Below, one piece after another: positions 1 through 9,391 of a DNA stretch of 9,391 nt (position 1 is the stretch's first letter; the number at the start of each line of letters is the position of its first letter). The stretch is taken from positions 1-9,391 of the forward strand of contig NZ_CAAFRZ010000125.1 in the NCBI RefSeq assembly GCF_900765565.1, given 5' to 3'. Below the pieces are notes generated by a model, which did not search any database, was not told the DNA's origin, and saw only the letters and a list, made by a program, of their open reading frames with translations. Source of the DNA: an uncultured Dialister sp. GTDB lineage: Bacteria; Bacillota; Negativicutes; Veillonellales; Dialisteraceae. The translations under genes were made by a program, and so were the position numbers.

Positions 1-116
1 TCACTTGCGTTAAGATTGTGATGAGATTGTACCATGACTGGGACATTTTCATTTGTGGTTACTTGAGACAATATCACTTGTGGTTCATAAACTCTATTTT
101 GTATGTTGACGTAAAT

Positions 117-145
117 TTGACAAATTGCCTCATGTCTGTTACTCT
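117..145 (+). promoter_or_regulatory. Candidate promoter of the arsR gene
   Basis: A perfect -35 hexamer TTGACA (117-122) is followed after 17 bp by a weak -10, TACTCT (140-145). It lies 46 bp upstream of the arsR start. The poor -10 could mean weak or activator-helped transcription. A second TTGAC at 106-110 has no convincing -10. Confidence 0.45.
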
Positions 146-149
146 CTCT

Positions 150-165
150 ATAGAAATAATTCTAT
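150..165. promoter_or_regulatory. Candidate ArsR operator (inverted repeat)
   Basis: ATAGAA-ATAA-TTCTAT is a perfect 6-bp inverted repeat with a 4-bp AT spacer. It lies between the candidate -10 and the ribosome binding site of arsR. AT-rich imperfect palindromes at or just after the promoter are the usual binding sites of ArsR/SmtB repressors, so autoregulation is the natural reading. This is inferred from position and symmetry. Confidence 0.45.
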
Positions 166-190
166 CTATTTGTTGGGAGTTTATATCACT

Positions 191-553
191 ATGGAAAAAA
201 TTTATATTGATACTGCAAAAATTTTAAAAGCCATTTCTGATCCCAAACGACTGAAGATTGTAGACATGCTTTCCTGTCATGAACAGTGCGCATGCAAGAT
301 CCAGGAGGCCTTTGCCATTACCCAGCCCACCCTGTCCCATGATATGAAGGTTCTTGTGGAATCAGGACTTATCCTGGACCGGCGGGATGGAAAGAATATC
401 TTTTATTCCCTGAATCCGGTGGTGCTGAAGGAAGTGTACTCCATTATGGGAGAAATCTTCCGGAATAAGCTGCACTGTGTGTGCGATGGGAAACACCATG
501 GCCATCATCAGGAATCGGTTTCGGACTGTGAAAAAGAACTGACTTCCCTGTAA
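191..553 (+). CDS. ArsR/SmtB-family metal-responsive transcriptional repressor
   Basis: A 120-aa winged-helix repressor of typical ArsR length. Residues 9-28 (AKILKAISDPKRLKIVDMLS) are the classic ArsR opening. Residues 31-35 read EQCAC, matching the ExCxC motif in helix alpha-3 that binds arsenite, antimonite or soft divalent metals in ArsR/CadC-type sensors. Residues 44-60 (TQPTLSHDMKVLVESGL) form the DNA-recognition helix, and 61-75 the wing. The family releases DNA when metal binds. The tail is unusual: C96, C98, H102, H103, H105, H106 and C113 could form an extra metal site. I chose the ATG at 191 because GGGAG (175-179) precedes it and the family alignment begins there; an in-frame TTG at 125 would add 22 unlikely residues. 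No efflux or reductase gene follows, so any target must lie elsewhere, perhaps left of the window. The exact metal is unknown. Confidence 0.9.
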   Translation: MEKIYIDTAKILKAISDPKRLKIVDMLSCHEQCACKIQEAFAITQPTLSHDMKVLVESGLILDRRDGKNIFYSLNPVVLKEVYSIMGEIFRNKLHCVCDGKHHGHHQESVSDCEKELTSL

Positions 554-554
554 A

Positions 555-597
555 AAGAAGCTGGGGAACTGTGGAAAACACGGTCCCCGGCTTTTTA
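555..597 (+). terminator. Rho-independent terminator after arsR
   Basis: Just after the arsR stop, arms GCTGGGGAACTGTG (560-573) and CACGGTCCCCGGC (579-591) pair with one bulged A and two G-T wobbles around a GAAAA loop. A T-run at 592-596 follows. This makes arsR a single-gene transcript. Confidence 0.85.
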
Positions 598-610
598 AAT
601 TTCTCAGAGA

Positions 611-804
611 GTATGCTTACGGTTGGAGCCATTGGGCACAGGGCTTTTAGCTTCTAGCTGTTAGCTTTTAGGAAAACTGACCAGCCTGCGGCGCTTCCCA
701 TCGGGTATGCAACAGTTCTTCATGCCGTAGGCTGCTGAGTTTTCCTGGCTGCTAATAGCTAGAAGCTAAAAGCCCCATGCAGGTAACTCTATCCATCAGC
801 ATGC
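611..804. repeat. Hairpin repeat element, copy A
   Basis: A ~194-bp long inverted repeat. The inner arms, starting GGGCTTTTAGCTTCTAGCT (641-659) and ending AGCTAGAAGCTAAAAGCCC (757-775), pair almost perfectly. Inside them, AGCCTGCGGC (683-692) pairs with GCCGTAGGCT (724-733). The outer ends are more diverged, GTATGCT at 611 against the right end CTATCCATCAGCATGC (789-804). The core GCCTGCGGCGCTTCCCA (684-700) is shared with copies B, C and D. A lies in the same orientation as D and contains no credible gene. It begins just after the arsR terminator. A transposition-derived miniature element or a REP-like structured repeat are both possible. Confidence 0.8.
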
Positions 805-894
805 AAACTTGCGGCGCAGCCGCGGGAACTCAACTCTCAACTCTTTCCAACTATCCTGTTTCATGCAAGTGGATCTATCCATTAGCGTAACAAC
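776..894 (+). repeat. Direct repeat of the element right end, with pyrimidine-rich spacer
   Basis: The right end of copy A (CATGCAGGT...TCTATCCATCAGC, 776-800) recurs about 86 bp later as CATGCAAGT...TCTATCCATTAGC (862-886). The spacer holds a GCGGC-GCA-GCCGC palindrome (811-823) and a period-7 pyrimidine run resembling AACTCTC (about 827-847). The second copy looks like a stranded end of another element of the same family. No coding sequence is visible here. Confidence 0.5.
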
Positions 895-926
895 ACAAAA
901 ATAATATATTTTATCCATTATCTTCT

Positions 927-956
927 GTTTACCATGAAAAAGTGGTAAACTATATA
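927..956 (+). promoter_or_regulatory. Candidate promoter and operator of the 104-aa gene
   Basis: A perfect 8-bp inverted repeat, GTTTACCA (927-934) and TGGTAAAC (943-950), with an 8-bp spacer, overlaps a candidate promoter. That promoter is TTTACC (928-933), 17 bp, then TATATA (951-956), about 50 bp upstream of the start codon. A dimeric regulator bound here would cover the -35 box. The regulator's identity cannot be read from this site. Confidence 0.5.
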
Positions 957-1006
957 CGGAAATAGCAATATGGGATTGCTATAAATTGGTCGTAGAGGTG
1001 ATAAAC

Positions 1007-1321
1007 ATGGCAGAAGTAACAGAAAAAAGTGTTGTTGTCTGCGGCGTTGATAAATACGCTGTAGCAGATCTGAAGCGTGTTTACGGTGGCGTAAGCTATC
1101 AGGGAGAGGAATATGTATTCCTTCAGTTCCCGGTTGTTGGCGACACAGTAAGGGAATATCGTCCGGACAGCTATACCACGGCAATTCGTCTTGGCGATGA
1201 AATTTTCGACGGCAAGACCTTCCACTATCATGTAACCCTGACCTATGATGGCCACGTAAGAGAAGTGGCTTATCTGGGCCTCGATGATGCAGGCAGACCG
1301 GATACCGTTGATATCGAATAA
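1007..1321 (+). CDS. Hypothetical protein, 104 aa
   Basis: I do not recognise this protein. It is 104 aa, acidic and predicted soluble, with no signal peptide or membrane segment. Alternating hydrophobic stretches (SVVVCGV near 8-14, EYVFLQFPVVGD near 36-47, FHYHVTLTYDGHVREVAYLGLDD near 74-96) suggest a mostly beta fold. The only cysteine is C12. The ATG at 1007 is supported by GAGGTG (995-1000), six bases upstream; an in-frame TTG at 986 would add seven residues without a ribosome binding site. The gene stands alone between its own promoter (with a palindrome) and its own terminator, lies upstream of parAB on the same strand, and is flanked by repeat copies A and B. That isolation, good signals and normal codon use argue for a real, independently regulated gene. 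No function is proposed. Confidence 0.8.
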   Translation: MAEVTEKSVVVCGVDKYAVADLKRVYGGVSYQGEEYVFLQFPVVGDTVREYRPDSYTTAIRLGDEIFDGKTFHYHVTLTYDGHVREVAYLGLDDAGRPDTVDIE

Positions 1322-1341
1322 TCCCTGTCATCCAGTAAAAG

Positions 1342-1366
1342 AACCGGGCGTGTCCCGGTTTTTTTA
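1342..1366 (+). terminator. Rho-independent terminator after the 104-aa gene
   Basis: AACCGGG (1342-1348) and CCCGGTT (1354-1360) form a perfect 7-bp stem with a CGTGT loop, followed by a T-run to 1365. It lies 20 bp after the stop codon, so the small gene is monocistronic and parA needs its own promoter. Confidence 0.9.
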
Positions 1367-1381
1367 TTGGAAAAATGGATG

Positions 1382-1580
1382 GCATACTGAGGGGGAGGGT
1401 CACATAGGTGCGGGGGCTTCCAGCTTCTGGCTGCTAGCTGCCAGGAAAGCTGTACAGCCTACGGCATGTTGGTATTACTGGAAATTCTAGGTGGGAAGCG
1501 CTGCAGGCGGATCAGTTTTCCTGGCGGCCAGGAGCTGGCAGCTGGAAGCTCCATGCCGGTGACTCTACACGCAAGCATAC
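1382..1580. repeat. Hairpin repeat element, copy B
   Basis: A ~199-bp inverted repeat of the same family as A, C and D, but inverted relative to A and D. The left arm GCTTCCAGCTTCTGGCTGCT (1416-1435) pairs with the right arm around 1532-1550. The core reads GGGAAGCGCTGCAGGCG on the plus strand (1493-1509). The ends are GCATACTGAGG (1382-1392) and CGCAAGCATAC (1570-1580), which pair imperfectly. The right flank has a further CATCAGCATGC (1597-1607) like the end of copy A. The element follows the terminator of the 104-aa gene and holds no credible gene. Confidence 0.8.
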
Positions 1581-1649
1581 TAACCCACTAACCCCATCAG
1601 CATGCTGTCCGAAATAGCCTATTTTCCTCCCATTTTTCCCATGCAATTA

Positions 1650-1658
1650 TGGTATAAT
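1650..1658 (+). promoter_or_regulatory. Extended -10 promoter of the parAB cluster
   Basis: TGGTATAAT (1650-1658) is a consensus -10 hexamer (TATAAT, 1653-1658) with the extended TGN element. No convincing -35 lies 16-18 bp upstream, which is typical of extended -10 promoters. It is 30 bp upstream of the parA ATG and has no competitor between copy B and parA. Confidence 0.7.
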
Positions 1659-1688
1659 AAAATGGATTATCTATGAAAGGAAGAGACC

Positions 1689-2447
1689 ATGGGAACGATC
1701 ATCAGCATCATCAACCAGAAGGGCGGCGTAGGCAAGACCACCACCGCCGTGAACCTGGCTGCCTGCCTGGCGGATAAGGGGCACAAGACACTCCTCATCG
1801 ATGAAGATTCACAGGGCAATTCCACCAGCGGCCTCAGTAAATCCGTGGATTTCGAAAAGAGCCTGTACGATGTACTGCTGGATGATGAGCCCGTGGACCA
1901 TGCCATCGTAAAGACGGCGGTCAAAAAGCTCCATCTCCTTCCGGCTTCCATCGACCTGGCGGGGGCGGAAATCGAGATTGCTCCCCTTCCGGAACGGGAG
2001 TCCCTGCTGAAGAAGAAAATAGAACCTCTCCGGGAGGAATATGAGTATATACTTATTGACTGTCCTCCGTCCCTGGGACTCATGACGCTGAATGCCCTGG
2101 TAGCCTCGGATTCCATTATCATTCCTATCCAGGCGGAATTTTATGCCCTGGAAGGACTGTCCCAGCTGGTGAAGACGGTGCAGGTGGTATCCCGCCGCAT
2201 GAATCCCCGGCTCCATATCCTGGGCATCCTTCTCACCATGTTTGACGGACGGACGAACCTGTCCCTACAGGTGGCGGAAGAAGTGAAGAAGTACTTCGGT
2301 TCCAAAGTGTTCCGTACTGTGATACCCCGGACCGTCAAGCTGTCGGAAGCACCGAGCTTCGGGGAGCCCATTCTGACCTATGCCCCAAAATCAAAAGGGG
2401 CCGAGGCCTATAAGAAACTGTGTCGGGAGGTTTTGAAGCGTGAATAA
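1689..2447 (+). CDS. parA: ParA/Soj chromosome-partitioning ATPase
   Basis: A 252-aa MinD/ParA-class ATPase without an N-terminal helix-turn-helix, as in chromosomal Soj. The deviant Walker A motif KGGVGKTT is at residues 11-18, with signature lysine K11 and catalytic-loop lysine K16. The A' motif is DEDSQGN at 38-44, where most relatives have DxDPQGN, so serine replaces the proline. Walker B is LIDCPPSLG (122-130, D124). The family dimerises on ATP, binds DNA nonspecifically and is stimulated by the ParB N-terminus, moving ParB-parS complexes and influencing replication initiation. AAGGAAGAG precedes the ATG. The gene overlaps parB by 8 bp, implying translational coupling, and is transcribed from the extended -10 promoter at 1650. 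Identification is secure. Confidence 0.97.
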   Translation: MGTIISIINQKGGVGKTTTAVNLAACLADKGHKTLLIDEDSQGNSTSGLSKSVDFEKSLYDVLLDDEPVDHAIVKTAVKKLHLLPASIDLAGAEIEIAPLPERESLLKKKIEPLREEYEYILIDCPPSLGLMTLNALVASDSIIIPIQAEFYALEGLSQLVKTVQVVSRRMNPRLHILGILLTMFDGRTNLSLQVAEEVKKYFGSKVFRTVIPRTVKLSEAPSFGEPILTYAPKSKGAEAYKKLCREVLKRE

Positions 2448-3294
2448 GAAAAAATTGGGACGGGGGCTGGGAGAGCTCCTGGGCGATGACTACCAGGATA
2501 CGGGAAAGGTCCTGAACCTTTCGGTGGACCGCATCGTTCCCAATCCCTGGCAGCCCCGTCAGGATTTCGATGAAGAATCACTGGCTTCCCTTTCGGCGTC
2601 CATCAAAAAGGATGGCCTCATCCAGCCGGTGGCGGTACGGGATAAAGGGCATTCTTCCTATGAACTCATCACCGGGGAGCGGCGCTGGCGGGCGGCTAAG
2701 ATGGCGGGCCTTGCCACCATTCCCGCCATTGTCCTTGATTATGATGACCGGGGCATGGCAGAAATGGCGCTGGTGGAAAACCTGCAGCGGAAAGACCTGA
2801 ATCCTGTGGAAGAAGGCATGGCTTACCGGAAGCTCATGGATACCTATGGCCTCACCCAGGAAGAGGTATCCGAAAAAGTGGGAAGGAGCCGTCCCTATAT
2901 AGCCAACATGATTCGTCTCCTGGAACTGCCGGAGGAAGTACGAAATCTCCTGTCTGCCGGAAAGCTTACAGCCGGCCAGGCAAGGCCTCTCCTTTCCCTT
3001 GGCAGTGATGCGGAAAAGGTGAGTCTCGCCCGCCGTATCGTATCGGAAGGCCTTTCTGCCCGACGGGTGGAAGAGCTGGTGCGGGCCGGTAAGCCAAAGA
3101 AAGTAGAAAAGAAGGATCCCGTTTCCGAATATCTGAAGGCCATCGAGGAAAAGATGGGCCTTTCCGTGGGGACGAAGGTCCGTATCCGGGTGGGAAAAGG
3201 AAAGAATGCCCACAAAGGGACCATTTCCATTTCCTTTAAAAATGATGAAGAATTCCAGCGAATCGCAGAGCTGCTTGATTCGCAGGGGAAATAA
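2440..3294 (+). CDS. parB: ParB/Spo0J centromere-binding CTPase
   Basis: A 284-aa chromosomal ParB. The N-terminal KLGRGLGELL (5-14) is the short ParA-stimulating peptide. The ParB/Srx-type CTP-binding domain follows, with NPWQPR (35-40), the signature GERRWRA (79-85) and ENLQRKDLNPVEE (113-125). A helix-turn-helix at about 139-160 (TQEEVSEKVGRSRPYIANMIRL) recognises parS, and the C-terminal ~60 residues are the dimerisation domain. Family members load at parS, close as CTP-dependent sliding clamps and spread. Translation starts at GTG 2440 inside the parA stop region, with GGGAGG at 2425-2430. A matching perfect parS lies 3.8 kb downstream (7083-7098). Noc is a related alternative, but adjacency to parA, the N-terminal peptide and a parS-type rather than Noc-type site favour ParB. 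Confidence 0.97.
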   Translation: MNKKKLGRGLGELLGDDYQDTGKVLNLSVDRIVPNPWQPRQDFDEESLASLSASIKKDGLIQPVAVRDKGHSSYELITGERRWRAAKMAGLATIPAIVLDYDDRGMAEMALVENLQRKDLNPVEEGMAYRKLMDTYGLTQEEVSEKVGRSRPYIANMIRLLELPEEVRNLLSAGKLTAGQARPLLSLGSDAEKVSLARRIVSEGLSARRVEELVRAGKPKKVEKKDPVSEYLKAIEEKMGLSVGTKVRIRVGKGKNAHKGTISISFKNDEEFQRIAELLDSQGK

Positions 3295-3319
3295 TACAGG
3301 TGGAGTGTAAAGTACGATT

Positions 3320-3892
3320 ATGATCAATCCCAATACAGTCATTTATGCCGGCATCGGCATTGTTGTTATCCTTTTCCTTTTCATGGTTCTCCAGTACTTC
3401 CTGCTGAGGGCCAAGGTGAACCGGCTGTCCAAAAAATACAAGTACTTCATGAATGGGGAAGACGGCGGTTCCATCGAACTGAAGCTGTCCACGGAAGTCA
3501 GGGAACTTCGGGAAATGGTGGCTTCTTCGGAAAATATGCTCCACCAGCAGGAACTCCTGGCTACCATGCAGCTCCAGTCCTTCCAGAAGGTGGGGCTGGT
3601 GCGGTACGATGCCTTTGATGATACGGGAGACAAGCTATCCTTTTCCCTCACATTACTGGATGGGAAAAATAACGGCTTTATCCTGTCTTCCCTGGCCGGC
3701 CATGATACGTCCCGGATCTATGCAAAACAGATCGTGAAGGGCCAGTGCAAAGAAGCCCTGTCTTCGGAAGAAGCAGAAAGCATCAATATGGCTTTGGATA
3801 CACTGATGCCGGATATTGCCAATGAAGGAATGCCCCAGGGACAGGCCCAGGGCGTTCCGGCAGGCCAGAAAATCGACACCGCAAAGAAATAA
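3320..3892 (+). CDS. DUF4446 family membrane-anchored protein
   Basis: A 190-aa protein with one N-terminal transmembrane helix (about 8-29), a basic and coiled-coil-like stretch (about 31-86), and the conserved block KVGLVRYDAFDDTGDKLSFSLTLLD (90-114) continuing to SSLAGHDTSRIYAKQI (123-138). This block is the hallmark of the DUF4446 family, commonly found beside parAB in Bacillota. The biochemical function is unknown. The C-terminal ~25 residues are Gln/Gly/Pro-rich and look disordered. The topology implies a short extracytoplasmic or unstructured N-terminus with the conserved domain in the cytoplasm. It starts 25 bp after parB, with AGGTGGAG (3298-3305) somewhat far (14 bp) from the ATG, so it is probably co-transcribed but modestly translated. 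A role at the membrane linked to segregation or envelope growth is inference from context only. Confidence 0.88.
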   Translation: MINPNTVIYAGIGIVVILFLFMVLQYFLLRAKVNRLSKKYKYFMNGEDGGSIELKLSTEVRELREMVASSENMLHQQELLATMQLQSFQKVGLVRYDAFDDTGDKLSFSLTLLDGKNNGFILSSLAGHDTSRIYAKQIVKGQCKEALSSEEAESINMALDTLMPDIANEGMPQGQAQGVPAGQKIDTAKK

Positions 3893-4003
3893 AAGCCTTT
3901 GGGAGAGGGCAGGTTTTAAAGAATAGAATTTGATTAAGAATAGGGGGATATTTCAGGGACTTTCCATCCATGGAGAGCCCCATCGTATAGAAGCAGGTTC
4001 TGA

Positions 4004-4954
4004 ATGAAGAAGACAACGAATGAAAAAACAGGAGAAGTGACATTCTCCTTTACCGATAAAGAAATCAGAAAACTGAAAATCGGCGCCATTGCAGGGGCCG
4101 TTGTATTTGTCCTGAGCCTTGGTACGGCCGTGTATTCCGCCGCTTCCATGAATACCCTCAGAAATGAAAATGAGCTTTATAAAAACCAGCTCAAAATGGC
4201 GGAAGAGAAGATGGATGCCCTGGCGGACAAGACGAAGACCATCGAGAAAATGTCCGGCCAGCTCCAGGATATGATCAAAGCCAATAATAACGGTGCGGGA
4301 CAGAATATTTCCACCTCCGGTGAAGGCGGACAAGGCGGCGCATCCACGGTGCCGGACAAGGCCAGGGATGTGAAGGCTTCGGAGCACGAAAATGTCTCTT
4401 CCGATGACGGCGATATTTCCACGCCCGGACAGCTTTTGAGCCGCATGCGGAAACTGGACCAGCGGCTGGACAGCCAGATCAAGACCATGATTGTCCTCCG
4501 GGAAAAACTCCTGAACCAGACCTACGGTTCCGCAGCACCCCTGCTTCATACTTCATCCACCACCCCTGATATCTGGCCTGTGTCCGGAACTGTCTCCAGT
4601 TCCTACGGCTTCCGGAACAGCCCCGGCGGTATCGGTTCCACCTACCATGAAGGCATCGATATTGCCGTGGACTACGGTACTCCCGTGGAAGCCACCGCTT
4701 CCGGCGTGGTGACCCAGGCAGGCTGGGTAGCGGGCTACGGCAACCTGGTGGAAATCAAGCATGACGGCGGTATAACCACCCGGTACGGCCACAATTCTGC
4801 CCTCCTGGTGTCCGTGGGACAAGAGGTGGACCAGGGCACGGTAATTGCCCTGGCAGGAAGCACGGGAAACAGCACAGGCCCCCACTGCCACTATGAAGTG
4901 CGCATCAACGGGGACGCCGTGGATCCGGTATACTTCCTCCCGGCAAACCAGTAA
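4004..4954 (+). CDS. Membrane-anchored M23 (LytM-type) peptidase
   Basis: A 316-aa protein with a short cytoplasmic N-terminus, one transmembrane segment (about 25-48), a coiled coil (about 50-92), a low-complexity Gly/Ser/Asp linker (93-142), a second helical stretch (143-172) and a C-terminal LytM/M23 domain (about 190-312). All catalytic-site residues are visible: zinc ligands H215 and D219 (HEGID), H263 (YGHNS), H294 and H296 (GPHCHYEV). M23 enzymes cut peptidoglycan peptide cross-links outside the membrane. The intact site suggests a real hydrolase rather than an EnvC-like degenerate activator. It follows the DUF4446 gene by 111 bp with no terminator between, and is closed by a strong terminator, so it is likely the last gene of the parAB unit. 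A cell-wall factor beside parAB suggests coordination of segregation and septal wall processing, which is inference. Confidence 0.93.
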   Translation: MKKTTNEKTGEVTFSFTDKEIRKLKIGAIAGAVVFVLSLGTAVYSAASMNTLRNENELYKNQLKMAEEKMDALADKTKTIEKMSGQLQDMIKANNNGAGQNISTSGEGGQGGASTVPDKARDVKASEHENVSSDDGDISTPGQLLSRMRKLDQRLDSQIKTMIVLREKLLNQTYGSAAPLLHTSSTTPDIWPVSGTVSSSYGFRNSPGGIGSTYHEGIDIAVDYGTPVEATASGVVTQAGWVAGYGNLVEIKHDGGITTRYGHNSALLVSVGQEVDQGTVIALAGSTGNSTGPHCHYEVRINGDAVDPVYFLPANQ

Positions 4955-4965
4955 CTTTTAAAATC

Positions 4966-5010
4966 AAAAGCACGGAGAAAGGGAAAAATCCCTTTTCTCC
5001 GTGCTTTTTT
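4966..5010 (+). terminator. Long Rho-independent terminator of the parAB-M23 cluster
   Basis: AAAAGCACGGAGAAAGGGA (4966-4984) pairs with TCCCTTTTCTCCGTGCTTTT (4989-5008) across an AAAA loop with one extra T, ending in a T-run to 5010. The A-run on the left gives it bidirectional character, so it may also stop the convergent lysR transcript. Confidence 0.93.
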
Positions 5011-5204
5011 GTGCTGGCGGATAGAGTCATTTGGGCGGAGCTTCCAGCTATTAGCTGCTAGCTTTTAGGAAAGCTCATCAGCCAACGGTACGAATGATTG
5101 GACTGAAATATCGGATGAGAAGCGCCGCAGGCGAATCATCTTTCCTAACAGCCAGGAGCTAGCAGCTAGAAGCCCCACTCGAATGACTCTATCCGCCAGC
5201 ATGC
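5011..5204. repeat. Hairpin repeat element, copy C (best preserved)
   Basis: A ~194-bp inverted repeat with the clearest ends. GCTGGCGGATAGAGTCATT (5013-5031) is an exact reverse complement of AATGACTCTATCCGCCAGC (5182-5200). The inner arms GAGCTTCCAGCTATTAGCTG (5039-5058) and the matching right arm near 5155-5174 continue the stem. The core appears in minus orientation as GAAGCGCCGCAGGC (5119-5132). It directly follows the M23 terminator and ends 12 bp before the lysR stop codon, filling the gap between convergent genes. No target-site duplication is evident. Confidence 0.88.
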
Positions 5205-5216
5205 CTTTTGGCCAGC

Positions 5217-6089
5217 TCAATGCCATGCATTAAGGCCGATCCCTGTCTTTACCCATGAACAGGCAAAAGACGCCAGGTCCTCCGCTTCCTTTGTGGGATG
5301 GAGGGGCAGCGCTATACCCAGGGTCCGGTGGACCTCAGGAACCAGGGGAAGGCACAAGACCCCCTCCGGCAGACGGGAAAGGCTGAGACGGGGCATGGCG
5401 GTGGCGCCCAGGCCTGCTTTCACCATGGAAAGGAGGGTATAGTCATCGTCACAGGTGACGGATATGTCCTTTCGTGGAGGAATATCCAGATAATAGGTGA
5501 GGTCATTCATGGGAGCCATGAGGAGGGGATAGGCTATGAGCTCGTCCCTGGTGATTTCCTTCTGTCCGGTATGGAGGAAAGAGGGCGGAAGCACCGCCTC
5601 ATACCGGTCTTTTTGCAGGGGAATGAAGGAAAATCCCCGGCACCTGCGGTCATCGCCAAAGGCAATATCGATTTTTCCTTCCGTCAGCCACTGGTGAATG
5701 ATATCCGTACCGACACGGATATCGAAAAGAAGGGATTCATGGCGGCCTTTATATTCCTTCAGTATTGACGGAAGCCAGAGGTTGGCCATGCTGGAAAAGG
5801 CGCCGATACGAAGGGGCCTCTTTCGCCCTTCCCGGATGCGCCGGGTCTTTTCCTCCAAAAGGCTATAGCTCCCTTCCATGTCCAGAAGGAAAGGATAGAG
5901 CTCCTGTCCCTCCTTTGTGAGGCCAATGCCCCGGTGGGTTCGTTCCAGTATTTTAAATCCCAGTTCCTGCTCTACGCCGTTCATGAGCTGGGACAGGCCG
6001 GACTGGGTGCAATGCAGCTTTTCCGCTGCCCTGTTCAGACTTCCTGTTTCGATGGCGCAGAGGAGCGCTTTCAGCTTGTATTGGTCCAT
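5217..6089 (-). CDS. LysR-family transcriptional regulator
   Basis: A 290-aa LTTR of normal length. The N-terminal winged helix-turn-helix spans residues 1-60 (LKALLCAIETGSLNRAAEKL at 6-25, then TQSGLSQLMNGVEQELG at 28-44, FKILERTHRGIGLTKEG at 45-61). A linker helix (about 65-90) leads to the periplasmic-binding-protein-like effector domain (about 93-285). I chose the ATG at 6089 because AAGGAA lies six bases upstream and the family alignment begins at DQYKLKALL; in-frame upstream starts lack ribosome binding sites. The gene is divergent from an EamA transporter with a 119-bp shared control region, the usual arrangement of an LTTR and its target. The effector cannot be inferred. Confidence 0.95.
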   Translation of the reverse strand: MDQYKLKALLCAIETGSLNRAAEKLHCTQSGLSQLMNGVEQELGFKILERTHRGIGLTKEGQELYPFLLDMEGSYSLLEEKTRRIREGRKRPLRIGAFSSMANLWLPSILKEYKGRHESLLFDIRVGTDIIHQWLTEGKIDIAFGDDRRCRGFSFIPLQKDRYEAVLPPSFLHTGQKEITRDELIAYPLLMAPMNDLTYYLDIPPRKDISVTCDDDYTLLSMVKAGLGATAMPRLSLSRLPEGVLCLPLVPEVHRTLGIALPLHPTKEAEDLASFACSWVKTGIGLNAWH

Positions 6090-6134
6090 GGCAGTTCCTT
6101 CCAGTAAAGACATAGTACGATTTCTACTAACCCT

Positions 6135-6163
6135 ATTATAGAGTCTCCTTATCTTTTTATCAA
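6135..6163 (-). promoter_or_regulatory. Promoter of lysR
   Basis: Read on the minus strand, TTGATA (plus 6158-6163) is followed after exactly 17 bp by a perfect TATAAT (plus 6135-6140), 45 bp upstream of the lysR ATG. This is the best sigma-70/sigma-A promoter in the window. Confidence 0.8.
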
Positions 6164-6168
6164 AAGAT
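6151..6168. promoter_or_regulatory. Inverted repeat in the lysR-eamA divergent control region
   Basis: ATCTTTT-TATC-AAAAGAT is a perfect 7-bp inverted repeat with a 4-bp spacer that covers the lysR -35 box. It is a good candidate for the LysR regulatory binding site, giving autorepression and placing the regulator just upstream of the transporter promoter. A weak -10 for eamA (GATAAT, 6173-6178) lies immediately to its right, without a clear -35, as expected of an activated promoter. Confidence 0.55.
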
Positions 6169-6208
6169 GAGAGATAATAACGATAAATCATGGATAAGGA
6201 GGAAAACC

Positions 6209-7114
6209 ATGAATCAGTCAGACCGGCAGGGGATAGTAGAAGTACTCATAGGAAGTATGCTGTGGGGTTCCATCGGTGTCTTCGTTCTTTGGATGGACCG
6301 GCTGGGGTCTTCCTCTGCCCTCACCGCCTTTCTCCGCATGGCCTTTGCTTTTTTGATTCTTTTCGGTATGACCCTGTTCCATGGCGGATGGAGGGCCCTG
6401 CGGATTTCAAAGAAGGGGCTTCTCTGGTCTGCTCTTCTGGGGCTGGTGTGCCAGGGGCTGTACAATGTTTTCTATAATGAAGCCATTGTGGATATCGGTA
6501 TGACCCTGAGTGCGGTCCTTCTGAATGTGGCTCCCCTCTGTACCATGACCCTGTCCCACCTGGTATTTAAAGAGCGATTTTCTTCCCGCAAATGGACGGC
6601 TCTCTGTGTATGTATGGCCGGCTGTTTCTTCACTGTCACCGGTGGCTGCCTTTCTTTTGGAAACCTTTCGGTCCCGGGCATTCTCTGTGGCCTTCTTTCC
6701 GGTATTTCCTACGGTATGACTTCCATATTCGGAAAGCTGGCAGGAGAAAAGGCCGATGTCTTTACTATGAGCCTTTACAGTTATTTCTTTGCGGCCCTGT
6801 TTCTTCTTCTCTTTTCCCATTCCTTCCTGTATGAACCCTGGAATGGGGCGGTGCTTCTGGCGGGCTTTCTCTATGCTTTGATACCTACGGCCATTGCCTA
6901 TATCCTCTATTACCGGGGTCTGCAGAAAATCAGGGAAAACAGCCGGGTCCCGGTCATCGCTTCAGCGGAAACGGTGGTGGCTGCCATTCTGGGTACGTTC
7001 TTTTTTCACGAATCCCTGTCCTGGGCCCAGGCCCTGGGGATCCTGATGGTCCTATTTTCCATCGTTCTTATGAATGGCCAAATGTTTCACGTGAAACAAA
7101 AAGACTGGATTTGA
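6209..7114 (+). CDS. EamA/DMT-superfamily transporter
   Basis: A 301-aa integral membrane protein of the drug/metabolite transporter superfamily, which has about ten helices in two EamA halves. Typical signatures are IGSMLWGSIGVFV (helix 1), LTAFLRMAFAFLIL (helix 2), NEAIVDIGMTLSAVLLNVAPLCTM (helices 3-4), the second-half GLLSGISYGMTSIFGKLAG and ALIPTAIAYILYYRGLQKI, and the closing SAETVVAAILGTFFFHESLS. Relatives export amino acids, metabolites or drugs; the substrate is unknown. The ATG at 6209 has a full AAGGAGG (6196-6202) six bases upstream; an upstream in-frame start at 6167 overlaps the regulatory palindrome. It is divergent from lysR and is the likely target of that regulator. The last codons (residues 291-297) contain a perfect parS site. 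Confidence 0.95.
   Translation: MNQSDRQGIVEVLIGSMLWGSIGVFVLWMDRLGSSSALTAFLRMAFAFLILFGMTLFHGGWRALRISKKGLLWSALLGLVCQGLYNVFYNEAIVDIGMTLSAVLLNVAPLCTMTLSHLVFKERFSSRKWTALCVCMAGCFFTVTGGCLSFGNLSVPGILCGLLSGISYGMTSIFGKLAGEKADVFTMSLYSYFFAALFLLLFSHSFLYEPWNGAVLLAGFLYALIPTAIAYILYYRGLQKIRENSRVPVIASAETVVAAILGTFFFHESLSWAQALGILMVLFSIVLMNGQMFHVKQKDWI
7083..7098. promoter_or_regulatory. parS: parS centromere site, perfect match
   Basis: TGTTTCACGTGAAACA is an exact 16-bp palindromic parS, the binding site of chromosomal ParB/Spo0J. It is embedded in the 3' end of the eamA coding sequence, encoding part of QMFHVKQ. It is the only copy I find in the window. Its presence 3.8 kb from parB supports an origin-proximal location and a functional ParABS system. 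Confidence 0.95.
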
Positions 7115-7189
7115 AGTTTGGATTTTGAGGATGTATTGGGATATTTTAGTATATCAAGCTTTCCGGTGAGGTCGGTGTATGGCCCCAAT

Positions 7190-7498
7190 GGGGTGAATGG
7201 TTCGTAATGGTTGTGGGTTGGCATCGCTGCGCTTGCCAACCGGGTTGTGGCTGCATGCCAAAGCTGACGCCTTGGCGCAGCGGGGGCGTAAGGTAGGACG
7301 GCCTGCGGCGCTCCCAACAGAATCCCTCACTCCGGTGGAGTGGTAAACAGACGGTGTTTGTAGTGAATCGGAGTTGACGGAGGTTGGCCGTTGGAAGTGC
7401 CACAGGCGAATCCACTTTATGCCCCCGGTGCGAAGCACCTACAACCCGGTGAACGAGCGAAGCAATGTTCACCCACAACCTTTAGCCCCATTCACCCC
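7190..7498. repeat. Large branched inverted-repeat element E
   Basis: The left arm (7190-7318) and right arm (7390-7498) are reverse complements over most of their length. GGGGTGAATGG (7190-7200) pairs with CCATTCACCCC (7488-7498), GGTTGTGGGT with ACCCACAACC, GGGGGCGTAA with TTATGCCCCC, and CTCCCAAC (7311-7318) with GTTGGAAG. Each arm carries an extra hairpin at the equivalent place (TTGGCA...TGCCAA on the left, GTGAAC...GTTCAC on the right), so the fold is branched. The centre has CACTCC-GGT-GGAGTG (7328-7342). The core GCCTGCGGCGCTCCCA (7301-7316) matches elements A-D, and the right arm carries a diverged inverted copy. Short reading frames inside follow the symmetry and look non-coding. 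Confidence 0.8.
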
Positions 7499-7574
7499 GT
7501 TTGGGGGTGCTCGCCAACCACAGACCCAAACACCTAGACAAACCTTAATATGACGGGCTGGTAGGAATCCATTA

Positions 7575-7608
7575 AAAAATAGCGGCGCCATTCAATTTGT
7601 GCGCCGCT
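7575..7608 (-). terminator. Minus-strand intrinsic terminator without an upstream gene
   Basis: AGCGGCGC (7581-7588) and GCGCCGCT (7601-7608) form a perfect 8-bp GC-rich stem. The A-run (7574-7579) on its left becomes a U-tract only for leftward transcription, while rightward the stem is followed by CCTTCACTCC. No minus-strand gene is visible between here and 9391, so it may guard against antisense transcription from the sel1 side. Confidence 0.6.
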
Positions 7609-7611
7609 CCT

Positions 7612-7647
7612 TCACTCCTAACTCCTCCCTCCTCACTCCTCACTCAC
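7612..7647 (+). repeat. Pyrimidine-rich period-7 tandem repeat
   Basis: About five degenerate units close to CTCACTC or CTAACTC run through 7612-7647. A related period-7 stretch occurs near 827-847 beside element A. Both lie next to hairpin elements. Confidence 0.5.
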
Positions 7648-7667
7648 AGGCACTCATTTCCAATGGA

Positions 7668-7727
7668 TTGAGCAAGCAATTCCATACAGTTACATACCTT
7701 GACCTCGCTTCCCATGAATTATATGAT
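7668..7727 (+). promoter_or_regulatory. Two candidate promoters of the sel1-repeat gene
   Basis: The distal candidate is TTGAGC (7668-7673), 17 bp, TACATA (7691-7696). The proximal and stronger one is TTGACC (7699-7704), 17 bp, TATGAT (7722-7727). The proximal start would be near 7734, giving a leader of roughly 37 nt. The distal start would be near 7703 and include the whole hairpin described at 7702-7765. Confidence 0.6.
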
Positions 7728-7765
7728 TGAACCAAAGGTAAAGATCATAAGTTCACAAGCGAGGT
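7702..7765 (+). promoter_or_regulatory. Leader inverted repeat pairing with the sel1 ribosome binding site
   Basis: ACCTCGCTT (7702-7710) is an exact reverse complement of AAGCGAGGT (7757-7765), which contains the GAGG ribosome binding site and is followed by TTTTTT. Partial inner pairing (GAATTATATGAT against ATCATAAGTTC) supports a hairpin. In RNA from the distal promoter this would hide the ribosome binding site; it could instead be a DNA operator. It matches no riboswitch class I know. Confidence 0.4.
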
Positions 7766-7770
7766 TTTTT

Positions 7771-9114
7771 ATGAAAGATACCATTGAAGAAGCACAGAAA
7801 CTGTATAATGCCGGGAAGTATCTGGAATGCCGGGCCATGTACCAGCGCATTGCAGAAGGTCCCTATGATGACAGGGAGAGAGGCATTGCCTCTTCCATGC
7901 TGGTCCATATCTATGGCCGGGGCATGGGAACCCCGGAGAACGATGCCCTGTCCGATGAGTGGCTTTCTAAAGGGACGGCCCTGAAGTGTCCGCTTTCCCT
8001 GTTTTTCCTGTACATGCAGGATACGGATATGGAGAGCCGGGAATTTGAAAATTTCATGAAGAAACTTCGAAACCTGGCAAAAGAGGGATCCACCCTGGCC
8101 ATGCAGGAACTGGGGCTCATTTATGAAATGGGATTCCATCGGAAGAAGGATCTGGCGAAGGCCCTTTCCTGGTATGAAAAGGCGGGGGACCTGGGCGATG
8201 CGTCGTCCATGCTCCAGGCGGGATGGCTCCTGGTTGATGAATCTTCTCCCCTCTACGATGATCATAAAGCATACCTCTGGTTCCTGAAGGGGGCGGCCCT
8301 TGGTTTTTCAGGCACCGAGTACGAACTGGGAAACTGTTACTGGCTGGGCCGGGGCGTGGAACGGAATGAAGAAAGGGCGATTACTCTCTTTGAGCGGGCC
8401 GCAGACCATGGAAATATGGAAGCCTGCGGCACCCTGTGGCAGATTTATGCCCGGGAAGGCAGGACCGATGAGAAGGGCCAGGTCCACTATGACAAGGAAA
8501 AGGCTTTCCGCTATCTGAAAATGGGAGTAGACCGGGGCGACCGGGATGGCATCATCGTGCTGGCCATGTGTTACCTTATGGGAGAAGGAACGCCGAAAAA
8601 TCCGGAAAAGGCCTTTTCCCTGTACCAGGCAGCCTGGGACCAGGGAGATGCCATGGCGGGAGCCATGATGGGGACCATGTATGTCAATGGTCTTCTGGGG
8701 GAAGAAAACCGGGAAAAGGGCATTGCCTACCTGAAGCAGTCCGCCAGTGAAGGATGCCTGGATGCGGTGCGGGAACTGGGCAGCTGCTACCTGGAAGGAA
8801 AGGGCATCCTGCCGGATGAGGAGGAAGGACTTTCTCTCCTTCGGGAAGCGGCGGAAGAGGGGGACGGCGAAAGCTATACCCGCATAGGATGCCATTACCT
8901 GGAGGAAAAGGATGCCCAAAGGGCCTATGATGCCTTTGTAAAGGCAGAGGGCCTGGGAAACGGGAATGGAGAGTTTTACCTTGCCTGTTTCTACCTCCAT
9001 GGAACCGTGGTACCCAGAAACCTTCGGAGGGCGGAGGAACTGTTCCGCCGGTCCGCAGAAAAGGGCGTCCAGCCGGCGGTGGACATGTTGAAGGAACATT
9101 TTTATCGGGATTAG
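7771..9114 (+). CDS. Sel1-like repeat (SLR) protein
   Basis: A 447-aa soluble protein without signal peptide or membrane segment, built from about ten Sel1-like repeats of ~36 aa after an N-terminal TPR-like helix pair (IEEAQKLYNAGKYLECRAMYQRIAEG). Good units include FSGTEYELGNCYWLGRGVER..., DGIIVLAMCYLMGEGTPKNP..., AMAGAMMGTMYVNGLLGEEN... and DAVRELGSCYLEGKGILPDE..., each showing the A..LG..Y..G.G pattern followed by A...YL..AA..G. Such alpha-solenoids act as protein-binding scaffolds in signalling or envelope processes; the partner here is unknown. I chose the ATG at 7771 because GAGG (7761-7764) sits six bases upstream and the repeat fold begins there. An in-frame TTG at 7699 falls within the promoter. 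The gene is isolated, and element D begins 10 bp after its stop. Confidence 0.93.
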   Translation: MKDTIEEAQKLYNAGKYLECRAMYQRIAEGPYDDRERGIASSMLVHIYGRGMGTPENDALSDEWLSKGTALKCPLSLFFLYMQDTDMESREFENFMKKLRNLAKEGSTLAMQELGLIYEMGFHRKKDLAKALSWYEKAGDLGDASSMLQAGWLLVDESSPLYDDHKAYLWFLKGAALGFSGTEYELGNCYWLGRGVERNEERAITLFERAADHGNMEACGTLWQIYAREGRTDEKGQVHYDKEKAFRYLKMGVDRGDRDGIIVLAMCYLMGEGTPKNPEKAFSLYQAAWDQGDAMAGAMMGTMYVNGLLGEENREKGIAYLKQSASEGCLDAVRELGSCYLEGKGILPDEEEGLSLLREAAEEGDGESYTRIGCHYLEEKDAQRAYDAFVKAEGLGNGNGEFYLACFYLHGTVVPRNLRRAEELFRRSAEKGVQPAVDMLKEHFYRD

Positions 9115-9124
9115 TGGAGAAAGT

Positions 9125-9260
9125 GGCTGAGGGGTAGAGTCACTTTCACGGAGCTGCTGGCTTTTAGCAACTAGCTGTTAGGAAAACTGATTCGCCTGCG
9201 GCGCTTCCCACCTAATGTTTCTGCCCATTCATGCATGCCGTAGGCTGACCAGCTTTCCTA
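9125..9260. repeat. Hairpin repeat element, copy D, left part only
   Basis: It begins GGCTGAGGGGTAGAGTCACT (9126-9145), like the left end of copy C. The left arm runs through GCTTTTAGCAACTAGCTGTT (9160-9179), then the core GCCTGCGGCGCTTCCCA (9195-9211) in the same orientation as A. The right half starts GCATGCCGTAGGCTGACCAG and stops after TTTCCTA (9254-9260). The last ~57 bp expected from copy C are missing because another element begins there. As no separate terminator follows sel1, this hairpin may end that transcript. Confidence 0.8.
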
Positions 9261-9391
9261 GGGAAGCGCTGATTAATTCGCAGAGTCAGATTTCATAAGG
9301 ATCTTTATGCACTGCTTCGTCATAACTCTCCTTAAATAGCTCGCTATTCGCGTCGAGTTATTCCTCGCATTGCATAAAAATCCAAGAATGA
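9261..9391. mobile_element. Hairpin element F (MITE- or IS-end-like), truncated by window edge
   Basis: From GGGAAGCGCTGATTAATTCG (9261-9280) to the window end there is no match to the A-D family beyond the first ~11 bases, but there is strong inner symmetry. GGATCTTTATGCACTGC (9299-9315) pairs with GCATTGCATAAAAATCC (9368-9384) at 15 of 17 positions, AACTC (9324-9328) with GAGTT (9355-9359), and AATAGC with GCTATT around 9342. The centre near 9342 implies a right end near 9422. On the minus strand a 16-codon frame (9273-9323) follows AAGGAG, but it is too short to support. No transposase is visible. A miniature transposable element or an insertion-sequence end are the main readings. Confidence 0.6.

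Follow-up and report, generated by a model that had tools for sequence, protein, structure and literature searches.

Several families of bacterial repeats have been described as palindromes that resemble miniature inverted-repeat transposable elements (MITEs). The accessible parts of two reviews treat Correia/NEMIS, ERIC, RUP and RPE elements in this way, and report that RNase III cuts Correia transcripts (PMC2229807; PMC10969869). Heptameric repeats have been found to be over-represented in bacteria, with slippage proposed in the accessible part of one paper (PMC4692102), and they are also treated in a second paper, likewise available in part (PMC2700814). Here, a family of hairpin elements is described in a 9,391-nucleotide stretch of DNA (the window) from an uncultured Dialister sp. 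of the class Negativicutes (contig NZ_CAAFRZ010000125.1 of assembly GCF_900765565.1, positions 1 to 9,391). The arms of these hairpins are facing arrays of seven-base units, YAGCNNN, which is a new observation made here. The elements are read, with a probability of roughly 0.55, as old, non-autonomous, MITE-like mobile hairpins whose stems consist of such units.

Four copies in the window and their relatives

The four copies, A to D (Table 1), share their ends, their long arms and a core on one side only, as a sequence-only reading of the window had claimed, and they were found both by a repeat scan and by a covariance model. The model, R1, rests on six sequences, namely A, B and C together with three copies in a related genome, G006. 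A, B and C match it by construction, and D was left out of it; in the repeat scan of the window D was 80% identical to A. Read core-first, the plan is an end GCATGCTGRYGGATAGAGTCA, variable bases, a heptad arm, AGGAAA, a core near CTGATTCGCCTGCGGCGCTTCCCA, a loop, ATGCCGTAGGCTG, TTTCCT, the opposing arm and the inverse end. The best R1 strand places A and D one way and B and C the other, in agreement with the orientations first proposed. Full copies span 173-199 bp, and no window copy wholly contains an open reading frame (ORF) of at least 60 aa, so that they are, as the MITE criterion has it, below 500 bp and without a transposase gene. Terminal inverted repeats are present: the ends (helix 1) pair in 86.8% of cells over the six full copies. 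The coordinates of the sequence-only reading placed all four copies, with two corrections: C starts at 5010 rather than 5011, and D ends at 9261, a second repeat beginning at 9262.

Table 1. Coordinates of the elements and neighbouring features in the window, and of the full copies in G006. R1 scores are in bits; z compares the folding energy with 100 dinucleotide shuffles.
Feature	Position	Strand	Length	Basis or score
Copy A, full hairpin	611-804	+ (core-first)	194 bp	R1 184; dG -106.9; z -11.4
Copy A left arm, four heptad units (643-670), then GG	642-672	+		Lag-7 identity; sequence reading
Copy A one-sided core, AGGAAAACTGACCAGCCTGCGGCGCTTCCCA	670-700	+		Sequence reading
Copy A right arm, opposing heptad units	744-775	+		Lag-7 identity
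Copy B, full hairpin	1382-1580	-	199 bp	R1 163; z -5.0
Copy C, full hairpin	5010-5204	-	195 bp	R1 189; z -10.9
Copy D, lacking the right arm but with left end, left arm, core and the start of the right core	9125-9261	+		R1 63 (model 53-143); z -1.4
Second palindromic element, ends GGAAGCGCTGATTA; interrupts D at CTAG, cut by window end	9262-9391	+	~159 bp complete	
Partial extra end adjoining A	862-886	+		80% to right end of A, repeat scan
Partial extra end adjoining B, CATCAGCATGC; short, may be chance	1595-1605	+		Sequence reading
Larger hairpin, different arms, shares core motif GCCTGCGGCGCT	7180-7511		332 bp	dG -195; z -11.7; R1 16.5, E 0.013
104-aa gene	1007-1321			ORF; without Pfam family
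parA	1689-2447			Pfam and ORFs
parB	2440-3294			Pfam and ORFs
parS-like site TGTTTCACGTGAAACA, downstream of parA/parB	7083-7098			Perfect match to motif
G006 full copy	C2:97846-98039		194 bp	R1 177
G006 full copy	C3:102269-102457		189 bp	R1 173
G006 full copy	C3:100862-101034		173 bp	R1 136

Further copies were sought in related genomes, and G006 supplied them. A DNA search with copy C over six genomes of the genus gave matches in this one genome, and a query with the core only found G006 and merely 17-25-base matches in G004 and G002. In the first R1 pass, which scored the best 150 of 267 candidates in G006 and the best 150 of 515 in G001, G006 was found to hold at least three full copies; it also has one half copy (at C2:101936). 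Over 12 family genomes R1 matches were limited to G006 and G001, and no full copy outside G006 was present among the candidates scored. The G001 matches (E 0.002-0.005) were rejected as family copies, being heptad arrays by eye. The genes beside the G006 copies differ from those in the window: one full copy lies behind an enoyl-CoA hydratase gene (PF00378), a second behind an apparent bioA and the third between two apparent promoters, the latter two judged by eye. The half copy is adjoined by a DUF559 gene (PF04480, L096:12224-12607), and a similar gene was seen by eye among repeats in G001 (L220); a link between DUF559-type nucleases and repeat spread is possible. All 15 pairs among the six full copies are 63-71% identical, which suggests that the spread is old and goes against the recent spread that had been considered.

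A phage or plasmid origin was tried and set aside: copy C, the sole copy searched, had no match in a phage or a plasmid collection. Pattern scans of viral contigs were empty in four of five cases, and the fifth gave two loci with an 18-base match at which R1 found nothing (E up to 0.1). The larger hairpin in Table 1 was likewise not accepted as a clear family member, given its low R1 score and the lack of a DNA match in the 12 family genomes.

Copy D is most simply explained as cut by the nested insertion of a second palindromic element, whose left flank in the window, CTAG, falls within the right core and arm of D. The repeat starting at 9262 gave at least 53 matches in G006, at least 54 in G005 and two in G002 over the 12 genomes, the best 40 of 56 candidates being covered in G006 and the best 40 of 190 in G005. 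The 53 matches in G006 fall at about 40 places, as 13 of them are second ends. In eight copies both ends were located by script, and these measure 152-160 bp; CTAG or CTAA stands on the left in all eight and on the right in all seven that have a full right flank. In two further copies (L235, L236) TTAA stands on one side or on both.

The window encodes, by Pfam and ORF calls, an ArsR-type regulator, the 104-aa gene, ParA, ParB, a DUF4446 protein, an M23 peptidase, a LysR regulator, an EamA transporter and a Sel1-repeat protein. The copies are intergenic: arsR and the 104-aa gene flank A, the 104-aa gene and parA flank B, the M23 and LysR genes flank C, and D follows the Sel1 gene. By sequence reading, A, B and C come after inverted repeats that have T runs, and C sits immediately past the terminator-like repeat behind the M23 gene; among these repeats a simple terminator scan lists just the one before B, on the - strand. 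The closest relative of ParB among the matches listed is that of Dialister sp. UBA7295 (G001), at 68%, and G006 is the nearest of the six genus genomes compared (ParB 72%, ParA 91%). The site at 7083-7098 matches what we take to be the parS motif, and the window therefore probably lies near the replication origin.

Heptad arms and the pairing between them

The seven-base build of the arms is seen in their lag-7 identity, 0.54 in left and 0.55 in right arms, with 0.47 and 0.49 at lag 14; the remaining lags between 2 and 13 gave 0.12-0.30. Of the 61 genomes of the order, 11 contain three YAGCNNN units followed by YAGC; overlapping matches number 290 in G001, 39 in G006 and 24 in G005. The backward control pattern gave 0, 9 and 2 in the same three genomes; in G014 and G018 it gave 17 and 14 against 38 and 40 forward. 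The arrays in 49 Dialister-group loci fetched around YAGC matches mostly run one way and do not form hairpins. Beside such arrays, the intergenic DNA of Dialister appears by eye as a mosaic of several short repeat modules (L105, L148-L196).

Heptad arrays, some of which fold into hairpins, are found in intergenic DNA elsewhere in the class, where they lack the Dialister core. An R1 search over 380 class genomes, run with stricter filters and limited to six scored candidates for each genome listed, gave matches at E up to 0.001 in at least 20 genomes, the best score outside G006 being 49 bits. Many of these matches span model positions 31-165, which are the arms without the ends. Heptad arrays were seen by eye in 17 of 19 loci inspected (the other two slices missed the matched part), commonly in the form (AGCTNNY)n, AGGAAA or similar, then (RNNAGCT)n. 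Period-7 runs were then counted in 400 kb from seven class genomes, taken as 20 stretches on contigs with a class-wide R1 match (nine of the 20 containing one), with genes assigned by a simple ORF rule. The runs were mainly intergenic (51, with 19 coding), and intergenic runs of periods 5, 6, 8, 9, 10 and 11 numbered 1, 2, 1, 4, 1 and 6. Unit types vary (for example GGAATTA, GTGATTA and AGCTTTT), and a strict YAGC hairpin pattern found merely four hairpins in the sample. Folding with z below -4 was reached by 17 of 46 merged intergenic heptad regions and by about 3% of 159 other intergenic pieces; strong hairpins thus make up under half of the heptad regions. Facing arrays of unlike unit type and without clear complementarity were also observed (L264:2080-2169, L258:17487-17570).

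The sequence-only reading had seen in stems kept despite drift a sign of selection on structure or of recent spread, and had named covariation as a check; the tests for it gave mixed results. In the structure predicted by RNAalifold 91.9% of cells pair, compared with 89.3% in shuffles, and pairs changed on both sides number 14 against 7.3 in shuffles (1/500). Such tests are favoured by the structure itself, since it comes from the six sequences under test. When right halves were swapped among the six copies in the model register, three of 720 orders, the true one included, reached the observed pairing, for standard and for Watson-Crick pairs alike. By part, the Watson-Crick figures were 124/720 for the ends, 23/720 for the arms and 25/720 for the core. 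The swap by identity under free alignment was not significant, with 181/720 for whole halves, 295/720 for the ends, 147/720 for the arms and 113/720 for the inner part with the core; homogenisation of the arms, judged by identity, was rejected on this test. Co-adaptation within copies, seen in one of the two swap tests (3/720 in the model register, 181/720 by identity), would thus be slight. Better pairing within copies fits either selection on an RNA or copying of the arms at the DNA level.

Origin of the elements

A MITE-like mobile origin is preferred because ends and core shared at unrelated sites need copying. The copies are dispersed, four of them within the window, and they lie in both orientations at unrelated intergenic sites of two genomes. 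A transposase acting in trans on the ends common to the copies (drifted forms of GCATGCTGRYGGATAGAGTCA and its inverse) would move the element. For the heptad arms a further process has to be assumed, probably slippage, by which the seven-base units of the stem would grow or shrink during replication. The four-base flanks outside the inner ends, read by eye, are TATG/CATG for A, CATA/CATA for B and TGTG/CATG for C, and TATG/CATG, GTTG/CACC and CATG/CATG for the three G006 copies (G6a, G6b and G6c). They are identical in two of the six full copies, share three of four bases in two, two in one and none in one, and the palindromic CATG may belong to the repeat. The flanks are consistent with, though no proof of, an old CATR target. 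Transposition, this target and slippage of the arms are steps that we infer.

The end motif itself, with up to three mismatches, was found four times in G006, eight in G004, 11 in G001 and twice each in G002 and G011, and its reversed control gave 0 in all 12 genomes. In G001 and G004 it mostly borders, by eye, other intergenic repeats that have neither heptad arms nor core, as if ends and interiors were exchangeable. Some matches are probably due to chance by eye, namely those at L215 and L223 and those in G002 and G011, which lie partly in genes.

Several observations weigh against a mobile origin. Two copies from the same genome resemble each other no more than two from different genomes do, and copies in G006 are few (three full and one half, with the best 150 of 267 candidates scored). 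The end motif stands single and unpaired in G001 and G004. Neither C nor G6b shows a target duplication, the bases in front of D are GTGG, and a CATG flank may be no more than the final part of the inverted repeat. A transposase or RAYT with matching ends, which had been suggested as a check, did not come to light: no Pfam transposase family was found in 19 proteins near the end motifs of relatives, at loci reaching at most about 1.5 kb on either side, and nine of these proteins had no family at all. At site A, G006 and G002 keep the arsR and 104-aa neighbours with no element between them, which speaks for mobility, but divergence of the flanks prevents the empty site from being placed to the base, since about 100 bases on the promoter side align well and the arsR side does not. 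R1 found nothing in this gap of locus L105, whose sole match (19 bits, 5628-5764) lies past the 104-aa gene. In G006 and G002 the arsR/104-aa pair has the opposite orientation to parA from that in the window (L105:5997-7906 and window 191-2447).

The hairpins may instead have formed in place, by slippage of heptamers and fold-back copying of the nascent strand, so that transposition would be unneeded. The mainly intergenic period-7 runs (51, against 1, 1 and 1 for periods 5, 8 and 10) and the strong folding of 17 of 46 heptad regions, against about 3% elsewhere, speak for such a process, as does the slippage proposed for over-represented bacterial heptamers in the accessible part of PMC4692102. 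Arm copying would also yield the within-copy pairing reached by 3/720 swaps. Slippage, however, leaves the shared ends and core of seven copies (A to D and three in G006) unexplained, and the two arms within a copy are not clearly closer in identity than arms taken from different copies (147/720). On balance this account of the family is doubtful. The same tentative standing is given to a combined history, in which facing heptamer arrays would be hairpins made in place throughout the Negativicutes and the Dialister family would have gained core and ends and become mobile. If this were true, microsatellites would give birth to MITEs.

Selection on the fold, as in a structured RNA or an mRNA-stability element acting on transcripts in the manner of ERIC or Correia, is unlikely. 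It would account for the excess of pairs changed on both sides and for the rarity of whole-half swaps that pair as well. Oppositions of G.T over A.C on the core-first strand number 41 to 26 in the free alignment and 46 to 19 in the RNA-derived structure, and the former excess is a weak lean toward RNA. A transcribed copy would fold into a long hairpin, possibly a substrate of RNase III as described for Correia elements. Set against this are the derivation of the structure from the six sequences tested, the unremarkable swap by identity and a mixed orientation to the upstream gene. A, B and C follow terminator-like repeats and may therefore be rarely transcribed, and the three Rfam matches in the window (E up to 1) all fall under their gathering scores.

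Movement by a RAYT (Y1 transposase), as for REP/BIME palindromes, is very improbable: the copies are intergenic palindromes in both orientations, but typical REPs are shorter than about 195 bp with paired ends, and Y1_Tnp has no match in G006, which has copies, and matches in two of the 12 genomes, G001 and G007, in neither of which a full copy was recognised. Among the options named by the sequence-only reading (a non-autonomous mobile family, a REP/BIME-like repeat or a structured RNA), the mobile family has thus held up best.

Comparison with known systems

We know of no agreed reason for the excess of heptamers in bacteria, and the origin of MITE stems is, to our knowledge, mostly unclear. 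Hairpins in which both arms are heptad arrays, some with core and ends and some without, would connect these two questions, and such loci would allow slippage, fold-back copying and transposition to be separated by the comparison of strains. Among the titles and abstracts listed in a literature search outside of which most subscription papers lay, none dealt with such elements in Dialister or the Negativicutes, so that novelty is unproven.

The Dialister elements resemble Correia/NEMIS, ERIC, RUP and RPE, as far as the accessible parts of the reviews describe them (PMC2229807; PMC10969869), in their size of about 100-200 bp, the lack of a transposase gene, the terminal inverted repeats, the stem-loop over the full length and the dispersed copies. 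They differ in having heptad arrays as arms and CATR-like flanks, where TA is listed for several of those families, and in having no confirmed target duplication or partner transposase. A further difference is that, in relatives, their end motif is also found at the border of other repeats.

Three further systems share some traits, again according to the accessible parts of the sources. BrickBuilt of Porphyromonas gingivalis is MITE-like and always intergenic, with internal tandem repeats and inverted-repeat ends (PMC4596501), but its units are 23-nt minisatellites, whereas those in Dialister are opposed 7-nt arrays that form the stem. The P6b stem of the Nostoc tRNA-Leu intron is built of seven-nucleotide motifs and changes its length by whole motifs (PMC4476775); it is, however, part of a group I intron at a single locus and not dispersed. 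The heptamers of Xanthomonas, Nostoc and Beggiatoaceae are tandem, seven bases long, mostly intergenic and many per genome (PMC4692102; PMC4679880), and they are described as direct arrays rather than as the facing arms of a hairpin with core and ends. The Dialister element is likely a genome repeat of a known sort, unusual in its build.

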